Source: Reinekea thalattae (GTDB taxonomy: Bacteria; Pseudomonadota; Gammaproteobacteria; Pseudomonadales; Natronospirillaceae). Taken from it: a stretch of DNA of 64,000 nucleotides. The translations under genes and the position numbers were made by a program. The stretch spans positions 682,001 through 746,000 of the forward strand of contig NZ_VKAD01000001.1 in NCBI RefSeq assembly GCF_008041945.1, in the 5' to 3' direction. Below, piece after piece: positions 2,769 through 51,134 of this stretch (positions are counted from its first letter, which is position 1; every line of letters begins with the position of its first letter). Below the pieces are notes generated by a model, which did no database searches, had not been told where the DNA came from, and saw only the letters and a list, made by a program, of their open reading frames with translations.

Positions 2769-4448
2769 ATGACTTTTATTAAAAAATCTATTTTCCTTGT
2801 TGCTGGCAGCCTCTTTTTAGCCGGTTGTAGCACCACGTCCTCCAATACATCGGCAGGCGTTTTTTCTCCCAGCAAATGGTCTACTGCGTTTTCTTCGCTT
2901 AGCCGAGATAAGAAACAAGATCCTAATCATGAGGCGCTAGCGCAGCAAATTATTACCGCGACCTCTGAAAAAACTTACAACAAAGCAACCGACACGCTAC
3001 CTGTCTGGGGCAAGCCTCTCGATTTAAGCCGCCCAATACCAGACGATCTTTATCAGGTTCTTAGAGAAGGCTTTACGTTCGACCTAACAATTGAAGACAG
3101 TCGCGTTGATGCTCAGCTTCGTTGGTATGCAAGACACCAAAGCTACCTTAACCGAGTCAGCGATCGCGCATCGCGTTACATGTATCACATCGTTACCGAA
3201 ATCGAAGCTCGTGATATGCCACTCGAATTAGCACTGCTACCGATTGTTGAAAGCGCCTTCGATCCATTTGCTTATTCCCACGGCAGTGCTTCAGGCATGT
3301 GGCAGTTTATTGCTAGCACCGGCAGAATGTACGGCCTACAGCAGGACTGGTGGTACGATGGCCGCAGAGACGTTGTTGCTTCAACAGATGCGGCATTGAA
3401 TTACCTAGAAGACCTAAACCGCATGTTCAAGGGCGACTGGCTTTTAGCTCTCGCCTCCTATAACTCAGGTCCAGGCACTGTATTAAGAGCTCAACGCCGC
3501 AATCGCGCTGCCGGCAAGCCGACTGACTTCTGGCATTTAGACCTTCCTAAAGAAACAGAAGCCTATGTTCCTAAGTTAATTGCCTTAGCCAAACTATTCA
3601 GCGAACCAGAAAAATACGGCATCACCCTACCAAAAGTTGCCAACGAACCTTTCTTTGCAGAAGTCGACACTGGCGGTCAAATTGATCTAGCCCAAGCTGC
3701 GACGCTGGCAGACATGAACCTTAGCGATCTTTACATTCTTAACCCAAGCTACAATCGCTGGGCAACGGCGCCTCAAGGCCCACACAAATTGTTAGTATTT
3801 AAAGACCGAGCTGACCTATTCAATCAACGCATCGCCGAATTACCTGCCAACCAACGATTAACATGGAAACGCTACACCATTGAATCTGGCGATTCATTAT
3901 TGTCCATCGCACACCAACATGAAGTCACCGTGGATGTGCTTAAGGACGTCAACAATATTAATGGCAACCTTATTCGTGCCGGACACACCCTTCTGATTCC
4001 AGTGGCCAGTAAAAACGACAACTACTATTCCATGTCGGCGGAAAACCGCTTAAAGATCAAACAGAATGCCTTGGCAGGCTCAAGTAAACAGCGTATCGAT
4101 TACACGGTCCAATCTGGTGATAGCTTCTGGAGCATTTCGAGAAAGTTTGGTGTTAGCACTGCATCGGTTGCCAAATGGAACAACATGGCTCCGAAAGATG
4201 TCTTAAAAGTTGGCCAACAATTAGTAATATGGTCAGACTCAAGCAGCTCAGCCAGCGCACTAGATAGCCGCCAAGTTGTACGTAAAGTCGGCTATGTTGT
4301 TCGCCGTGGCGATTCGCTCTATCGCATTGCAGATAAATTCAGCGTGCGCGTCAGCGATATTCAAAAATGGAACCAGATTTCCTCGAATCAGTATTTACAG
4401 CCCGGTGATCGGCTTACACTCTATGTTGACGTAACCCGTATTCAATAG
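2769..4448 (+). CDS. mltD: Membrane-bound lytic murein transglycosylase D
   Basis: Outer-membrane lipoprotein that cleaves peptidoglycan glycan strands to 1,6-anhydro products. The N-terminus is a lipoprotein signal with lipobox LAGC (Cys20). The SLT catalytic domain covers roughly residues 115-250, with catalytic Glu161 in VESAFDP followed by SGMWQF and the ASYNSGPG motif. Three LysM peptidoglycan-binding repeats follow at about 372-414, 443-490 and 508-553, each with YTV/YVV...SGDS/RGDS cores. Length (559 aa) and order match MltD rather than the soluble Slt. It is divergent from the methyltransferase across a 125-bp gap that must hold both promoters. Confidence 0.96.
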   Translation: MTFIKKSIFLVAGSLFLAGCSTTSSNTSAGVFSPSKWSTAFSSLSRDKKQDPNHEALAQQIITATSEKTYNKATDTLPVWGKPLDLSRPIPDDLYQVLREGFTFDLTIEDSRVDAQLRWYARHQSYLNRVSDRASRYMYHIVTEIEARDMPLELALLPIVESAFDPFAYSHGSASGMWQFIASTGRMYGLQQDWWYDGRRDVVASTDAALNYLEDLNRMFKGDWLLALASYNSGPGTVLRAQRRNRAAGKPTDFWHLDLPKETEAYVPKLIALAKLFSEPEKYGITLPKVANEPFFAEVDTGGQIDLAQAATLADMNLSDLYILNPSYNRWATAPQGPHKLLVFKDRADLFNQRIAELPANQRLTWKRYTIESGDSLLSIAHQHEVTVDVLKDVNNINGNLIRAGHTLLIPVASKNDNYYSMSAENRLKIKQNALAGSSKQRIDYTVQSGDSFWSISRKFGVSTASVAKWNNMAPKDVLKVGQQLVIWSDSSSSASALDSRQVVRKVGYVVRRGDSLYRIADKFSVRVSDIQKWNQISSNQYLQPGDRLTLYVDVTRIQ

Positions 4449-11179: not shown

Positions 11180-12217
11180 CTAATGAGTTTGAGATTTCTC
11201 GATCAACGCCGAATAGGCACTGGTTTGAAGCGACTCAAAGCCTTCTTCATTATCCGCCTTGGTTATAAAAAATGCGGCTATATTGTGAGCTTCAGCATAG
11301 CTGAAAGCTTCTTCTACGCCCATCACCAAAAAGGCGGTGGCATAAGCATCGGCTTGCATGCTGCTGTCCATCATCACGGTGACAGACGCTAGATTATGTA
11401 CGATCGGGTAACCTGTACTTGGGTCAATGGTATGACTGTAACGATTGCCATCGATTTCAAAGTAATTACGATAATCACCACTGGTCGCGATAGCAATATC
11501 AGAAACAGCTAAAACACGATAAGCCGATCGTTCAGCCACATCTGGCTTTTCAATGGCAATGCGCCAAGACTCATTATTTGGCTTTAGACCTGACAGCCTC
11601 ATTTCACCACCGACCTCAACCAAATAGTTATTAATGCCTTTCGCCTCTAAAAAGCGAGCAATCTGATCGACCGCATAGCCTTTAGCGATCGCAGAAAGAT
11701 CCAGCTCCAACTCTTTAAACTTGGTAACTTGAGGATCGTCTAGCTGAACATCTAATGCTCGATAATCAATACGGGCCAATAACCTATCAATATCATCGGG
11801 ATTTGGAAGCTGATGTCGTTGAATGACAGGACCAAAGCCCCACAAATTAACTAATGGAGCAATAGTTGGATCAAAGCGTCCATCGGTAGCCGCCGCAATA
11901 GACAATGCTGCCTGCAAAACTTCAGCAGTTTCACTGGCAATTTTGATGGGCTGATTAATGGGTGCCGCTGAGATAGTGGAGATATCAGACTTGGGTAAGT
12001 AGGTGGACATCAGGCGGTCTATTTTACTAAGAACCCCTTCGACGCCTAATTGTAATGTCTGAGGTTCTGTATTCTGCGAGACATATTTGATCGAATAGCT
12101 GGTGCCTATCGCATAGCCACTAAAGCTTTGCAGCGTGTCTTTATCCGATAATGAACAGCCCGCAAGCAGACTGATAAAGATCAGTACTGCTGCGGGAAAT
12201 GAGAAAACGCGAATCAC
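11180..12217 (-). CDS. apbE: FAD:protein FMN transferase (flavinylates NqrB/NqrC)
   Basis: Attaches FMN through a phosphodiester bond to a Thr in target proteins. It is a lipoprotein (lipobox LLAGC, Cys about 21) exposed to the periplasm. Family motifs are GTSYSIKYV, the metal and FAD site DLSAIAKGYAVDQ, LVEVGGEMRLSG, and TSGDYRNYFEIDGNRYSHTIDPSTGYP with the catalytic region. At 345 aa it is standard. It sits 6 bases behind nqrF and before nqrM, so its substrates are very probably NqrB and NqrC, whose acceptor motifs are visible in this window. Confidence 0.95.
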   Translation of the reverse strand: MIRVFSFPAAVLIFISLLAGCSLSDKDTLQSFSGYAIGTSYSIKYVSQNTEPQTLQLGVEGVLSKIDRLMSTYLPKSDISTISAAPINQPIKIASETAEVLQAALSIAAATDGRFDPTIAPLVNLWGFGPVIQRHQLPNPDDIDRLLARIDYRALDVQLDDPQVTKFKELELDLSAIAKGYAVDQIARFLEAKGINNYLVEVGGEMRLSGLKPNNESWRIAIEKPDVAERSAYRVLAVSDIAIATSGDYRNYFEIDGNRYSHTIDPSTGYPIVHNLASVTVMMDSSMQADAYATAFLVMGVEEAFSYAEAHNIAAFFITKADNEEGFESLQTSAYSALIEKSQTH

Positions 12218-16701: not shown

Positions 16702-18039
16702 TTAACCCTCCGCCTCAATTCTTGTTAATGTATCCCTAAGAATCGGGCCATATTCGTACTTACTTGCACAAGCATAGGTACAAAGTGCCAGATCTTCTTC
16801 ATCTAACTCCAAAGCACCTAGCTGCTCGGCTGATTCCAAATCACCACAAACAATGGCGCGCAATAACTGAGTCGCCAAGATATCCAGCGGCATCACTTTT
16901 TCGTAATTACCGATCGGTACCATGCCTCGCTCAGAGCCATTGGTCGATGTTGAGAAATTAAACAGCTTATTTTTAAATAACGATGACAAGAAAGTCGTTT
17001 TCACCGAATGAGTATTAACACCCAAACGCAAGAAGTGAATCATCGGTCGGCTATAGTCGTTAACCAAAACACTGACTTGAGTATGGTGGCGACCTAAGTA
17101 AGCAACGGTATCGCTGGCAGTACGTCCGCCAAATACAGAGCCGGAAATAAGTCGGAAATCACCTTCTGGCAGCTCACCAGTGACCAATTCATCGATCGAT
17201 GCACCAAGCTGAGTTTTGACTAAACGAGGCTTGATCACTTCTGGACCTGCCAACGAAACAACACGCGCTGTATCGATCTCACCAGACTTAAATAATGCGC
17301 CATAAGCAATGACGTCCTGGTAGCCAATAGTCCAAACCGTTTTAGTCAGCGACACCGGATCTAAGAAATGAATATGAGTACCGGCATTACCCGCTGGGTG
17401 AACACCTGCAAACTCTTCAACAGAAACACCATCAACCGTTGGAATATCAGCGTTTGGCGCTTTACACAACCAAACCTTACCTTCAGTTAATTTAGTCAGT
17501 AACGAAAGCCCTAGCTGAAAATCTCTAGAACGCTCGGCAATAACCACTTGAGGGTCGGCTGCTAAAGGGTTGGTATCGATTGCCTGTACAAAAATAGCGG
17601 CAGGCGTTGCATCAATCGCTGGAACTTTTGAATAGGGTCTGGTGCGCAGTGCTGTCCACTGACCCGATTCAACCAGCTGATCAACAACAGCTTGACGATC
17701 TAACGCAGCTATTTGCTCTTCACTGTATGCGTTAAAACTAACAGAATCTTCGCCTTCAACTTCAATGACTAACGATTGAAAAACTCGTTTAGCACCTCGA
17801 TTGATCTGCTTTACCGAGCCACTTGCAGGTGCGGTATAGGTTACACCTTCATTCTTTTTATCGGTAAAGAGCGGTTGGCCTTTTATTACTTTATCACCTT
17901 CACGAACCAACATAGTTGGTTTCATACCGTGATAATCGTAACCAACCAAAGCGACGTGTTTAATGCTATGCCCTTCGCTGATCTCCTGCTTTGGTGAGCC
18001 TAAGATAGGAAGGTCTAGTCCTTTTTTGATGGTTATCAT
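16702..18039 (-). CDS. nqrA: Na+-NQR subunit A
   Basis: Peripheral subunit of the Na+-translocating NADH:ubiquinone reductase, on the cytoplasmic side. The N-terminus MITIKKGLDLPI is the family signature, followed by a biotinyl-lipoyl-like domain (VREGDKVIKGQPLF; APASGSVKQI) and a Rossmann-like/SLBB region. At 445 aa it is normal. It is the first gene of the leftward nqrABCDEF-apbE-nqrM operon. No strong Shine-Dalgarno is visible before this ATG, but the protein start is unambiguous. Confidence 0.98.
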   Translation of the reverse strand: MITIKKGLDLPILGSPKQEISEGHSIKHVALVGYDYHGMKPTMLVREGDKVIKGQPLFTDKKNEGVTYTAPASGSVKQINRGAKRVFQSLVIEVEGEDSVSFNAYSEEQIAALDRQAVVDQLVESGQWTALRTRPYSKVPAIDATPAAIFVQAIDTNPLAADPQVVIAERSRDFQLGLSLLTKLTEGKVWLCKAPNADIPTVDGVSVEEFAGVHPAGNAGTHIHFLDPVSLTKTVWTIGYQDVIAYGALFKSGEIDTARVVSLAGPEVIKPRLVKTQLGASIDELVTGELPEGDFRLISGSVFGGRTASDTVAYLGRHHTQVSVLVNDYSRPMIHFLRLGVNTHSVKTTFLSSLFKNKLFNFSTSTNGSERGMVPIGNYEKVMPLDILATQLLRAIVCGDLESAEQLGALELDEEDLALCTYACASKYEYGPILRDTLTRIEAEG

Positions 18040-45863: not shown

Positions 45864-46808
45864 TTAGCTGATGGTTGTTTGACGCTTTGTGAACTTTTGC
45901 AGCCACTGAGCAACATCAACATGCACAACAAAACTTCCCAACACCAACAGGCAACTACCAACCAACTGAATAGGCGTTAATGTAATATCAAGCACCAGCC
46001 AATTAATAACACCAGCCATAAGAGGAAAAGCCATTTCAGCCAAGGCACTGTGCTTAGAATCGATTCGCTTTAAGCCTTGGTAATAAAGCAACATACCAAG
46101 AGCTCCAGAAAGCAAAACCATCAGGGCGATCTTTTCAACCTGCAACAGCGATACGGTTTGTTCCAACGGGCTGTTTAGTAAAAACAACGGCAGCAACACC
46201 AACAGGCCAACCGAAAATCGACCGTTCATAATTTGCGAGCTGCTGTAACCCTTCATGGAAAGCTTTTTGCCAAACACAGTACTCGCACCCCAACTGACAA
46301 CAGCAATTAAGGCCAAACCATAGCCCATTAGCCGTGCCGATAATTCGGCCGTATAGTGCCAGCCGCTGGTCGCTAAAAACTGAATAATGTCGTGATACAT
46401 CAACATAAAGCTGCCGGAAAAGGCCAAGACAACACACAGTAGATAACCACTGCTTAATCGCTCTTTTAATAACCAAGCCGATAAGCTAATGGCAACAACC
46501 GGTTGGAGTTTTTGCAATAAGATCACCAGCGTTGGGTTCATATAGGAAAACGCCTGAGTGAAGGTCAAGGTACCAATAGCTGAACCAAAGCCACCAATGA
46601 CAACCAGTGCGAATAGATCCTTGCGATCGAAAGGCCAGAATTTGTGTCGACGAACCGTAAACCACAACCAAAAACCCAACACTAAAATAAAGTGCTCTAT
46701 CAGCACGATATTCACTGCTGAGACACCTTCGTCCATTAATGGATAACGAATCAGTGTATCGAGCGCCCAAAAAAACGTCGCGAAAATAACGAGAATAGTA
46801 CCTGTCAC
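45864..46808 (-). CDS. EamA (DMT) family transporter under FMN riboswitch: probable riboflavin importer
   Basis: A 314-aa membrane protein with about ten helices and two EamA repeats (FATFFWALDTLIRYPL...QKLQPVVAISLSAWLLKERLS; SWGASTVFGKKLS...KHSALAEMAFPLMAGVINWLVLD). Start is a GTG at 46808 with AAGGA seven bases upstream. An FMN riboswitch lies immediately upstream on the same strand. DMT-type riboflavin importers of the RibN/ImpX kind have exactly this control, so riboflavin uptake is the best inference; the EamA fold alone would not show it. Confidence 0.82.
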   Translation of the reverse strand: MTGTILVIFATFFWALDTLIRYPLMDEGVSAVNIVLIEHFILVLGFWLWFTVRRHKFWPFDRKDLFALVVIGGFGSAIGTLTFTQAFSYMNPTLVILLQKLQPVVAISLSAWLLKERLSSGYLLCVVLAFSGSFMLMYHDIIQFLATSGWHYTAELSARLMGYGLALIAVVSWGASTVFGKKLSMKGYSSSQIMNGRFSVGLLVLLPLFLLNSPLEQTVSLLQVEKIALMVLLSGALGMLLYYQGLKRIDSKHSALAEMAFPLMAGVINWLVLDITLTPIQLVGSCLLVLGSFVVHVDVAQWLQKFTKRQTTIS

Positions 46809-46953
46809 AATTGAATCCTTAATTCTATATACAAGGGTGACAGAGCTGCTTAGGAAGGATATGAAAACACAATGACGCCTGAGCCCACTTATTAACCGAC
46901 AACAGCAAAAGACAGCTGTGCCAAATTAATCGCGGATTCACGCATCTAGTTTC

Positions 46954-47115
46954 GACTTCTTCCATCCGGACTATAACCGTCGGCTCAGGCATTTAACCTG
47001 ATCTGCTGACCTTACCTAATTTAGATAAGCGCTCGTGGGCTCCCGCCTAATGATGCAAGGCGCATCATCAGTTATTGCGATTACCACCGGTGGGGAATTT
47101 CGCCCCGCCCTGAAG
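46954..47115 (-). ncRNA. FMN riboswitch (RFN element)
   Basis: Read on the minus strand, all conserved blocks are present in order. P1/P2 is CTTCAGGGCGGGGCGAAATT then CCCCACCGGTGGTAAT. A variable stem follows (GATGATGCGCC / near GGCG). Then come GGGAGCCCACGAGCG, GTCAGCAGATCAGG, TGCCTGAGCCGACGGTTATAGTCCGGATGGAAGAAG. It lies about 145 bases before the EamA transporter start. FMN binding normally shuts down downstream expression. A 17-codon frame (46892-46945) in the leader has no ribosome-binding site and is probably incidental. Confidence 0.96.
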
Positions 47116-47173
47116 TCAGTTGCTAATCATACATTTCAGCGATAAAAAGAAAAGCGCTATCGGCGGCTTATAG

Positions 47174-47213: not shown

Positions 47214-48281
47214 TCAGGTTTGATCAAACAACACCATGTGATCAAGTTCGAGGCGGATGCCGATCATTTCACCGATGGCATGATTATGATGACTCGGCGC
47301 TTGGCAAGGTAATAAACAGCCATTACTAAGTTGTACTTCGTATTGAAAAAAGCTGCCCTTAAAGTGTTTACGCGTGATACTCGCCTGATACGGGCTTTCA
47401 TCATCATGCAAAATATCATCTGGCCGCAGTAACAATAACTTCTTCTGCCCTGCCGTTGCCGCTAAGGGCTGCGGGCTGGTGAGTACGCCTAGCTCAGTAT
47501 TTATTTGCTGACTATTAAGTAGCTCGACCGGCAGAAAGTAACCATTGCCGACAAAATCTGCGACATAACGATTGACCGGTTGGTGATACAGCTCATAAGG
47601 CGTAGCAAATTGCACGATCTTACCGTCATCCATCAGAGCGACTTTATCGGCAATGGCGAAGGCTTCCAGTTGATCATGAGTAACGAATAAGGCGGTTATT
47701 TGTTGCTGAATTAAAATACTGCGCAACTCTACTAACAAGCTATCTCGCAACATCACATCCAAACCAGAAAAGGGTTCATCCAGCAATAATAAGTCCGGCT
47801 CTGGAGCCAGCGCTCGGGCAATGGCCACCCTTTGCTGTTGACCACCCGATAATTCATTCGGGTAACGCTGTTGATAATCGCTCAAGCCAACTAACGCCAA
47901 CAGTTCTGTCACTCGACGGCGCTGCTCTGGCCGACTCAGTTTAGCAAGACCAAAAGCTATATTTTGTCCAATCGTTAAATGCGGAAACAACGCAATATCT
48001 TGAAACACCATGCCCACTCGTCGATGCTCAGTAGCCAAACTCGACTGCGGGCTGGCGAGTTGCCGATCACCTAACTGAATTGTTCCGGAGGTTAATTCAC
48101 CAAAGCCAGCAATCAACTTTAATAGAGTCGACTTACCACAGCCACTGGCTCCCAATAAGCAACCTATTTCACCGGCCTGAAGCTGTAAGCTCAAGCCTTT
48201 AATAATGGTGTTTTGACCGTACGCGGCAGTCACTTGATCTACGATCAGTGGCAAACACTGTTTAGCCATAGCAGAACTCAT
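47214..48281 (-). CDS. fbpC: Ferric iron ABC transporter, ATP-binding protein
   Basis: A 355-aa ABC ATPase: Walker A GASGCGKSTLLKLIAG, Q-loop VFQDIALFPHLT, signature LSGGQQQRVAIARAL, Walker B LLLLDEPFSGLD, H-loop FVTHDQLEAF. The C-terminal extension after about residue 240 is a TOBE-like regulatory domain as in FbpC/PotA. It lies 3 bases behind the permease gene fbpB. Confidence 0.92.
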   Translation of the reverse strand: MSSAMAKQCLPLIVDQVTAAYGQNTIIKGLSLQLQAGEIGCLLGASGCGKSTLLKLIAGFGELTSGTIQLGDRQLASPQSSLATEHRRVGMVFQDIALFPHLTIGQNIAFGLAKLSRPEQRRRVTELLALVGLSDYQQRYPNELSGGQQQRVAIARALAPEPDLLLLDEPFSGLDVMLRDSLLVELRSILIQQQITALFVTHDQLEAFAIADKVALMDDGKIVQFATPYELYHQPVNRYVADFVGNGYFLPVELLNSQQINTELGVLTSPQPLAATAGQKKLLLLRPDDILHDDESPYQASITRKHFKGSFFQYEVQLSNGCLLPCQAPSHHNHAIGEMIGIRLELDHMVLFDQT

Positions 48282-48284
48282 AAT

Positions 48285-49913
48285 TTAGCGCTCTCGATAA
48301 ATAGATTTCGTCAGTAGATAGACCGGAATCAAGCCTACCAAAACAATGGTTAATGCCGCTGGTGCTGCCTCATATAGGCGCTCATCGCTGGCTAACTCAT
48401 AAGCCCTAACGGCCAAAGTATTAAAGTTAAAAGGACGTAAAATTAACGTTGCTGGCAGCTCTTTTAATACATCGACAAACACCATCAAAAAGGCCGTTAA
48501 CAGACTGCCTTTAAGCAGTGGCATATGGATTTGATAAAGGGTTTGAGCCGTGTTTTTACCTAACGTTTTGGCACTCTGATCAATAGAGGGTTTAATTTGT
48601 GCTAAAGCACTGCGCGCAGCACCGAGCGGCATCGCCATAAAGCGTACACAATAAGCAAACAATAACGCCATCAAGGTACCAGAAAACAACAGCCCTAAAT
48701 CTTTTGAGAACAAGCCCGACAATAGTGGTACCAACTGATGATCTAACCACGCAAAACTGGTCAAGACACCAATGGCGATAATCGTACCTGGCAAGGCGTA
48801 ACCTAATGACGCTACCTGTACAGAGGCTTGTGTTAATCGACTGCGATTAAAACGCTCAGCATAGGCTAGCAATAAGGCTATCGCCGTTGCGATCAAAGCA
48901 GCCACGGCTGCGAGCATCAATGAGTTCCACGCCAAAATAAAAAAACTGGCGGTGAATTGCTCAACATACTGCAGACACCACACCAGCAATAGGCAGACGG
49001 GAATTACAAATCCAAACAACACCGGCAACAAACACCAGCTAAATGCCAAAGCCCCTGCCAGTGGCGATAACGAGATTTTAGCAGGCTGAGCCGCGGCTTC
49101 GGTGTTATTAAAATATTGCTGTTTACGACGTGAATACTTTTCTAGCCAGATCAATAAAGCGATTGCAGATAACAATAAACTCGCCAACTGAGCAGCAGCA
49201 GCTAGATTGCCCAAACCATAGTAGGTTCGAAAAATTCCTGTGGTAAAGGTCGGAATACCAAAGTATTGCATGGTGCCGTAATCAGCCAGCGTTTCCATTA
49301 ACACCAACGAAACACCCGCGACAATGGCTGGCCGAGCAAGTGGTAAATTAATTCGCCAGAACGTTGACCAACCACTATTACCAAGACTCCGACTGGCCGC
49401 TGCCAAGCTGCTCGACTGCGATAAAAAAGCCGCTCGCGCGAGCAAAAATACATAGGGATAGAGCACAAAAATAAGCATCCAGATGGCCCCGCCCAATGAA
49501 CGGATCTGTGGGAACCAGTAATCACCGTATCGTAGATCAAAGCTGGTGCGAATCCACTGCTGCACTGGGCCAGAAAAGTCCAGCAAACCGGTATAGCTGT
49601 AGGCAATAATGTAGGCAGGTATCGCCATTGGTAGCATCAGTAATAGATTAAGTAAGCGCGAGCCTAAAAAATGATACTGACTGGTGAGCCATGCCGTAGA
49701 AACACCAATCACCAGCACGCCAGCACTAACGCCGATACTCAAATAAAAAGAATTTTTTAGATAGTCTGGCAACACCGTTTGTGCCAGATGCTGCCATAAC
49801 GCAGCCGAGCCAGAAAATACCTGACTGACAATGACAAGAATAGGCACGGACAACAACAGCGCGATGACTACCGCCAAACCACTGAACCGATCCACCCGCT
49901 TAAGTCTTTTCAT
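48285..49913 (-). CDS. fbpB: Ferric iron ABC transporter, fused permease
   Basis: A 542-aa inner-membrane protein made of two tandem permease domains (about 20-260 and 290-540), 12 helices. Each half has an EAA-type loop (AASRSLGNSGWSTFWRINLPLARPAI; QSAKTLGKNTAQTLYQIHMPLLKGS) that docks to the ATPase. Fused permeases of this type belong to FbpB/AfuB-like Fe3+ systems. It is the middle gene of the operon. Confidence 0.92.
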   Translation of the reverse strand: MKRLKRVDRFSGLAVVIALLLSVPILVIVSQVFSGSAALWQHLAQTVLPDYLKNSFYLSIGVSAGVLVIGVSTAWLTSQYHFLGSRLLNLLLMLPMAIPAYIIAYSYTGLLDFSGPVQQWIRTSFDLRYGDYWFPQIRSLGGAIWMLIFVLYPYVFLLARAAFLSQSSSLAAASRSLGNSGWSTFWRINLPLARPAIVAGVSLVLMETLADYGTMQYFGIPTFTTGIFRTYYGLGNLAAAAQLASLLLSAIALLIWLEKYSRRKQQYFNNTEAAAQPAKISLSPLAGALAFSWCLLPVLFGFVIPVCLLLVWCLQYVEQFTASFFILAWNSLMLAAVAALIATAIALLLAYAERFNRSRLTQASVQVASLGYALPGTIIAIGVLTSFAWLDHQLVPLLSGLFSKDLGLLFSGTLMALLFAYCVRFMAMPLGAARSALAQIKPSIDQSAKTLGKNTAQTLYQIHMPLLKGSLLTAFLMVFVDVLKELPATLILRPFNFNTLAVRAYELASDERLYEAAPAALTIVLVGLIPVYLLTKSIYRER

Positions 49914-50008
49914 CCAACGCCTAATCTATGTGCTTTGATAATCGACGGCTGTCGCCGTCGGCAATACTCAGCTCAGCAATGAACAACAGGCTGAGCGATC
50001 AACTCTTC

Positions 50009-50066
50009 TAACAAGAACGGTCTGACTAACTAACAAGGACGGCCAGACTAACAAGAACTGCCTTAC
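50009..50066. repeat. Three 18-nt repeats directly behind fbpA
   Basis: Units TAACAAGAACGGTCTGAC (50009-50026), TAACAAGGACGGCCAGAC (50031-50048) and TAACAAGAACTGCCTTAC (50049-50066), with a 4-nt TAAC insertion after the first. Neighbouring units agree at 14-15 of 18 positions. The last base is the final base of the fbpA stop codon (50066-50068). Confidence 0.9.
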
Positions 50067-51085
50067 TAGCGCCAGCCTGCTTTATCCATCAGCTGTACCG
50101 CAGCTGCATTATTAACACCTAGCACGCTCAAATTTAAAGCATCGGCTTTAAAGTCACCAAGGCTTTTCAATGCTTCAGAAGCCTCGATACCCTGCACGAC
50201 TGGGTACTCGCTATTGACCTCTGAATACCATGTCTGAGATTCATCAGTGAGCATAAACTCAATTAAACGAATTGCCTGTGCTTTATTTTTAGCAGATTTT
50301 GTTAATGCAATCCCACTGACATTAACATGCGTGCCGCGATCGTCTTGGTTTGGCCAAATCACGCCTAGGCGCTGAGCGATTTTTTGGTCAATGGCTTTAT
50401 CACTGATCAGCAGGCGGCCAAAATAATAGGTATTGGCAATGGCAATATCACAGACACCAGCAGCTGCGGCTTTTAATTGGTCGGTATCAGCACCTGCCGG
50501 CGGGCGAGCAAAATTAGCCACTAAACCTTGAGCAAAAGCTAATGCATTGGCCTCGCCTTCGGAGGCAATCATCGATGCCATCAATGATTGATTATAAATA
50601 TTATCTGACGACCGAACGCAGATTCTGCGCGACCATTGCTCATCGGTTAAATCGGAGTAGCTGGTAATGAGGCTAGGATCGACTCGATCTTTAGCATAAA
50701 AAATAGGCCGAGCACGTAGAGTTAAGCCTACCCATTGTTGGTCGACATCGATGAGGTGTTCAGGAACCCGCTGGGTAATAAAATCACTTTCTAACGGCTG
50801 CAACAGTTGCGCGACTTTAGCGCGATGCAATCGCCCTGCGTCAGCGGTCACCAATAAATCTGCCGGTGACTTACTGCCTTCTAAAGATAATCGGCTAATT
50901 AAGGCATCGTCAGCACCGGTGATAAGGTTCACCTTAATACCAGTTTGTTCGGTAAAACGATCAAGTAGCGGCTTAATCAATGCTTCTTTACGTGAAGAGT
51001 AAACATTAACCTCTTCAGCAAAGGCTGGAAGCTGTATAGAAAGTAACGTGATCAGCGCTAAAGAAAAAAACTTGGATACCATCAT
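50066..51085 (-). CDS. fbpA: Ferric iron-binding periplasmic protein
   Basis: Substrate-binding protein of the Fe3+ uptake system. Start chosen at ATG 51085 (or 51082): GAGACGG lies just upstream at good spacing, whereas the frame-extending ATG at 51100 has no such site. The signal peptide (residues 1-23) is cleaved after AFA. The paired Tyr residues that ligate ferric iron are in IANTYYFGRLL near residue 225. VNVYSSRKE at the mature N-terminus is typical. A candidate Fur box lies about 50-70 bp upstream. Confidence 0.92.
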   Translation of the reverse strand: MMVSKFFSLALITLLSIQLPAFAEEVNVYSSRKEALIKPLLDRFTEQTGIKVNLITGADDALISRLSLEGSKSPADLLVTADAGRLHRAKVAQLLQPLESDFITQRVPEHLIDVDQQWVGLTLRARPIFYAKDRVDPSLITSYSDLTDEQWSRRICVRSSDNIYNQSLMASMIASEGEANALAFAQGLVANFARPPAGADTDQLKAAAAGVCDIAIANTYYFGRLLISDKAIDQKIAQRLGVIWPNQDDRGTHVNVSGIALTKSAKNKAQAIRLIEFMLTDESQTWYSEVNSEYPVVQGIEASEALKSLGDFKADALNLSVLGVNNAAAVQLMDKAGWR

Positions 51086-51134
51086 ACAATGCCGTCTCAT
51101 GCTAAAAAATAAAGCTTAGCACTCAACGGCATCG

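Follow-up and report, generated by a model that had tools for sequence, protein, structure and literature searches.

Within a 64-kb window of the Reinekea thalattae genome (the whole stretch of DNA that was analysed, 64,000 nucleotides), we have found a monocistronic impX gene placed behind an FMN riboswitch, which very probably provides the cell with a riboflavin importer that is made at low FMN and whose translation is reduced at high FMN. In the mechanism that we propose, the leader would leave the GUG start codon open to ribosomes as long as little FMN is present in the cell, the ten-helix DMT permease would be made and riboflavin would be taken up. At high FMN the aptamer would bind FMN, the Shine-Dalgarno region and the start codon would be held in a hairpin, and translation would drop. 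The aptamer, the gene, its placement with ImpX, the co-conservation of aptamer and gene and the start-codon hairpin have all been recovered computationally (see below), and the coordinates of the features are given in Table 1.

Table 1. Features of the impX locus and of other parts of the window, in window positions.
Feature	Position	Strand	Basis or remark
ApbE-like protein	11180-12217		255 bits, under the NCBIfam model cut-off of 498
NqrA	16702-18039		above NCBIfam cut-off
ImpX-type EamA/DMT permease, 314 aa, GTG start	45864..46808	-	Pfam, BLASTP, tree, structure model
Predicted start-codon-sequestering hairpin	46801..46844	-	arms 46844-46837 (UCUGUCAC) and 46808-46801 (GUGACAGG)
Linker / expression platform, 141 nt, aptamer to start codon	46809..46949	-	
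FMN riboswitch aptamer (RFN element), complete	46950..47121	-	RF00050
Enlarged variable stem-loop within the aptamer (model's third helix and extra bases)	47035..47087	-	
ABC importer genes (ATP-binding protein, permease, binding protein)	47214-51100	-	directly upstream of aptamer

The aptamer matches RF00050 at 47121-46950 on the minus strand with 106.8 bits (gathering score 66.2; cmscan E 7.7e-24), and covers the model fully (positions 1-138 of 138). An earlier note, made on the letters of this DNA, had claimed a clear RFN element, and this is borne out. The locus that it delimited (45864-47115) was also right, except that it left out 6 nt of the aptamer, and the order of aptamer and gene stood as described, the gap given there as about 145 bp measuring 141 nt. 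This aptamer is the sole FMN riboswitch detected in a scan of the genome (2,942,562 bases, 98.5% complete). Its variable stem-loop contains 32 bases left unaligned by cmscan, and the 63-nt stretch around it (47026-47088) folds with -22.5 kcal/mol (z -2.03).

The protein encoded behind the aptamer matches Pfam EamA in two stretches with 119.9 bits, which together with the 314-aa reading frame confirms the DMT-type EamA permease that had been noted behind the RFN element, and an NCBIfam search with it gave no equivalog above its cut-off. The predicted structure is that of a ten-helix DMT protein (pTM 0.86, mean pLDDT 88.9). The PDB entry that resembles it most is 7paf, the choline importer LicB (TM 0.74 relative to query length), with further DMT proteins ranking next, a resemblance that shows the fold and not the substrate. 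A sequence search of solved structures returned just two chance-level matches, to nucleoproteins. Among the matches listed, the nearest named homologue comes from Reinekea marinisedimentorum (68-69% protein identity), the record lineage of whose relatives is Saccharospirillaceae.

Aptamer and gene are kept together among relatives of the host. With a threshold of E 1e-15, homologues were present in 11 of 194 sampled genomes of the host's order, namely the host, nine genomes with strong homologues and one with a weak homologue (L032), and the aptamer was found upstream in all nine strong cases and not in L032. The latter (genome G169), 59% identical to the Fusobacterium ImpX and with no FMN aptamer within 3.9 kb at its locus, is a candidate for a separate transfer. 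A contig collection gave a broader comparison, in which the best 80 of 251 relatives comprise 45 gammaproteobacterial and 35 Bdellovibrionota-type homologues by record title and tree position (L103, titled just Proteobacteria, was counted with the second group, since it groups with Bacteriovorax in the tree). Within these best 80 of 251, RF00050 was detected upstream of 42 of the 45 gammaproteobacterial homologues versus none of the 35 Bdellovibrionota-type ones, with 97 to 611 nt from aptamer to start in the 42 loci. The three gammaproteobacterial misses in the same 80 of 251 are a Psychromonas locus with a split aptamer (L051) and two Granulosicoccus loci without any. In L051 (Psychromonas sp. 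14N.309, 1928-2093) about 165 extra bases sit in the variable loop region of the aptamer, with both halves kept, and it is this insertion that makes RF00050 miss the aptamer at the gathering score; inverted repeats of 10 or more bases were not found at the insertion ends. Two loci titled Psychrobacter (L042 and L060) carry a Marinomonas-type impX and leader, which reflects either transfer or misnamed records.

The linker of the host, folded with its flanks, has a z of -2.46. A Shine-Dalgarno-like AAGGA (46820-46816) lies on the loop side of the start-codon hairpin, and within a 72-nt segment of the host the probability of the start codon being paired is about 1.0. In Marinomonas the hairpin is built from the arms CCUGUGCAUCUU and AAGAUGGCAGG, its loop containing the Shine-Dalgarno GGAG, and the start codon and its pairing partner co-vary, AUG with CAU in Marinomonas and GUG with CAC in Reinekea. 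Defining a local hairpin as one with all three start-codon bases paired to a partner 12-42 nt upstream, the predicted folds for the best 80 of 251 relatives place the start codon in such a hairpin in 36 of 43 riboswitch leaders versus 4 of the 35 homologues without a riboswitch. The seven of these 43 leaders in which the full hairpin is missing, again among the best 80 of 251, are those of all five riboswitch-bearing Psychromonas and two others. A pairing probability of the start of at least 0.8 was reached in 37/43 riboswitch leaders and 9/35 riboswitch-less homologues from the best 80 of 251, and in 31% of 420 controls in which the upstream bases had been shuffled. A simpler measure, the length of the longest run of perfect pairing, gives a poorer separation of the groups, with a mean of 6.6 versus 4.9 for riboswitch-less homologues and 5.8 for shuffles. 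On these folding models, the leader hairpin is a predicted start-codon sequestor, and Shine-Dalgarno sequestors in Gram-negative FMN leaders were reportedly described by Vitreschak and co-workers in 2002.

A pairing of the platform with the 5' strand of the aptamer looked promising by eye as an antisequestor and was dropped after a shuffle test, in which it did not surpass the shuffled sequences (mean z 0.14; at the 5% level, 0 of 43 leaders). When the whole leader is folded without constraints, the sequestor persists and P1 does not form. For these two reasons we infer the switching step from the family; FMN binding and FMN-driven formation of the hairpin, together with the direction of transport, are predicted. 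As this antisequestor did not stand up, and Rho takes part in E. coli-type control of ribB, one could suppose that the aptamer is a relic without control of the permease gene, or that control is exerted by Rho-dependent or intrinsic termination rather than at the start codon. We consider this unlikely, given the conserved aptamer core with its full-length RF00050 match, the maintenance of aptamer and gene together across genera, the marked difference in start-codon hairpins between riboswitch leaders and riboswitch-less homologues, and a host leader in which no terminator-like site is listed along the 141 nt between aptamer and start. A point against our own reading is the lack of a conspicuous promoter, with 2 consensus sites in the region versus 3.2 expected. 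Control of translation at the start codon is the reading that we keep.

Riboflavin as the substrate is suggested by kinship with ImpX of Fusobacterium nucleatum, a riboflavin importer that, as described in PMC4418817, restored growth of an E. coli ribB deletion strain when riboflavin was scarce (2.5 uM). The ImpX reference in our comparisons is the Fusobacterium vincentii orthologue, recognised from its riboswitch and from the impX primer sequences given in that paper. At its locus (L004, plasmid collection) an FMN aptamer (2776-2891, 118.2 bits) ends about 100 nt ahead of the gene, and the primers, one on each strand, match at 2530-2550 (4 mismatches) and 3905-3925 (3 mismatches), the best in five shuffled copies having 6-8; since they flank both aptamer and gene, L004 is the impX locus. 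When the Reinekea thalattae permease was compared by BLASTP with 29 selected EamA proteins, the Fusobacterium orthologue matched it over its full length with 27% identity (82 of 305 columns, E 2e-24), and the two share the motif TxVxLLQKxQPxxAI. A protein tree of 87 of 106 rows, from which 19 near-duplicate Marinomonas-type rows were omitted, and which had 14 EamA paralogues from the same genome and seven RibN-type proteins as comparison set, joins the permease, the Fusobacterium ImpX and their homologues in one clade (support 100/98), many of the paralogue branches being long and drawing a program warning. A second match in the plasmid collection, from Thermomicrobium (L003, 33.6% identity), has no aptamer.

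The riboswitch-less homologues have other neighbours. Those of the Bdellovibrionota type, 42-50% identical to the host permease (35 among the best 80 of 251), lie directly behind trmFO in 28 of these 35 loci (L067, L112 and L104 among others), the identity of TrmFO having been confirmed by NCBIfam on L067; an NAD-dependent epimerase gene is often the next one after the homologue (20/35, same best 80 of 251). The two Granulosicoccus homologues (L071 and L089) lie ahead of metK- and ahcY-like genes, neighbours named by eye, with the MetK neighbour matched between both loci. Because of these neighbours, some members of the wider family may transport another compound, and the riboswitch-less branches could have either another substrate or constitutive flavin uptake. 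Riboflavin auxotrophy as an explanation for Bdellovibrionota homologues without a riboswitch was rejected, as a search for lumazine synthase was positive in 16 of 16 genomes, 10 from that group among them. Considering also that EamA proteins have diverse substrates, the host permease might itself move some other compound tied to flavin status (folate-, methionine- or SAM-related, for example) or export flavin. The trmFO neighbour is however no argument against flavin, because TrmFO is itself a flavin enzyme, and it would serve little purpose to shut down an exporter at high FMN. According to PMC4418817, moreover, nearly all genes under FMN riboswitches serve riboflavin synthesis or transport, and the relative that was tested imports riboflavin. 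We therefore regard a different cargo, or export, as improbable and retain riboflavin import as the predicted function, which gives a named substrate to a protein left as a generic EamA transporter by NCBIfam and Pfam.

It is extremely improbable that the permease is RibN, the other EamA-type riboflavin importer found with a riboswitch. Both belong to the same Pfam family, and alpha-proteobacterial RibN genes, too, are monocistronic EamA genes behind a riboswitch (7 of 70 loci in the phylum survey described below). However, the seven riboswitch-linked alpha RibN-type proteins, so classed by gene context and fold and not by name, gave a best E of 9.5 by BLASTP, and form a 100/100 clade of their own, nested among the EamA paralogues of the host genome and outside the ImpX clade, while gamma RibN is described in PMC4418817 as missing the riboswitch. 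Sequence comparison thus supports that the permease belongs with ImpX and not with RibN. The riboswitch-controlled riboflavin importer of the earlier note is supported and narrowed from RibN/ImpX to ImpX; a tree comparison with both families had been set beforehand, and it places the permease inside the ImpX clade, hence not outside the riboflavin-importer clades.

We detected an FMN aptamer in 136 of 398 sampled Pseudomonadota genomes. Inspection of 70 aptamer loci (the 30 best-scoring and 40 mostly alpha-proteobacterial ones, a non-random sample) assigned the following gene by motif to ribH in 29, ribB in 26 (one with ribE), ribD in 6 (one with ribE) and RibN-type EamA in 7, with two loci without motif assignment, one being ribB by eye (L182) and the other a below-cut-off match (L162). 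In the family of the host, a single FMN aptamer match occurs in each of 17 of 22 genomes (16 above cut-off), followed by impX in 10, host included, and by ribH2, the second-type lumazine synthase, in 7 (for the Marinomonas copy the type was checked with NCBIfam). A pair of aptamers, one for impX and one for ribH2, is present in each of two Marinomonas genomes. In Marinomonas ushuaiensis the sole lumazine synthase match is low (118.9 bits versus 185-207 in others), and this species may rely on ribH2. A tree of 33 aptamers splits the 21 linked to impX from the 12 linked to ribB or ribH2 with support 100/100, a split that holds even within one Marinomonas genome carrying both, in a short tree with 16 of 30 inner branches open. 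Because of this split, joint descent of aptamer and impX is favoured over local borrowing, and the borrowing of the aptamer from ribH2 of the same genome finds no support in the tree. As a tentative scenario, somewhat less probable than not, aptamer and impX may move as one cassette between gammaproteobacterial genera, the transporter having been drawn from a riboswitch-less Bdellovibrionota lineage and FMN control having been acquired afterwards, through a platform in which the start codon itself is concealed (AUG/CAU in one lineage, GUG/CAC in the other), so that start codon and regulatory stem would co-evolve.

The host is probably a riboflavin prototroph, judging from two pathway markers searched in its genome, the DHBP synthase (ribB) and lumazine synthase (ribH) genes, which are adjacent and without aptamer. 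With these genes present, imported riboflavin seems to be an economy or an addition and not the sole source. ImpX is reported in PMC4418817 just in bacteria with the riboflavin pathway, and the locus fits the family pattern: monocistronic, FMN-riboswitch-linked and in a genome with riboflavin synthesis genes (ribB, ribH). The window also contains the Na+-NQR and the flavin transferase to which the earlier note had pointed, NqrA clearly and the second as an ApbE-like protein below cut-off. Their use as support does not hold, since these genes lie about 30 kb off and impX has other neighbours in the closest relatives. The ABC importer genes gave matches below the NCBIfam cut-offs, between iron, polyamine and 2-aminoethylphosphonate types; a link of impX with them was discarded, as the three nearest Reinekea loci have other neighbours.

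A riboswitch-controlled ImpX riboflavin importer is a kind of system already in print, reported in Proteobacteria in PMC4418817, and the locus of Reinekea thalattae is a further case. Neither Marinomonas nor Reinekea occurs in the main text of that paper, and our literature searches found nothing on riboflavin riboswitches in Marinomonas and nothing joining a riboflavin transporter, an FMN riboswitch and EamA. To this the present analysis adds members in named marine genera, a Bdellovibrionota branch from which the riboswitch is missing, and a predicted hairpin that encloses the start codon. Riboswitch-controlled ImpX is extended to marine gammaproteobacteria (Reinekea, Saccharospirillum, Marinomonas, Amphritea, Psychromonas and others), where prototrophs would invest in regulated vitamin uptake, and the riboswitch-less Bdellovibrionota homologues make it possible to test how control by a vitamin is acquired or lost in a transporter.

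Among the known systems, the ribB and ribH2 riboswitches (RF00050) have the same aptamer as impX and stand on the opposite side of the aptamer-tree split. RibN, known from Rhizobium leguminosarum, Ochrobactrum anthropi and Vibrio cholerae, is also an EamA riboflavin importer, riboswitch-linked in alpha-proteobacteria, and differs from the host permease in its separate clade and in a pairwise similarity too low to be detected. The closest counterpart is ImpX of F. nucleatum, like the host locus a single EamA/DMT gene right after an FMN aptamer in a riboflavin prototroph, with homology over the full length, yet only 27% identical and from a different phylum. Its riboswitch is described in PMC11014391 as acting on transcription, whereas the start-codon hairpin of the host suggests a control of translation.
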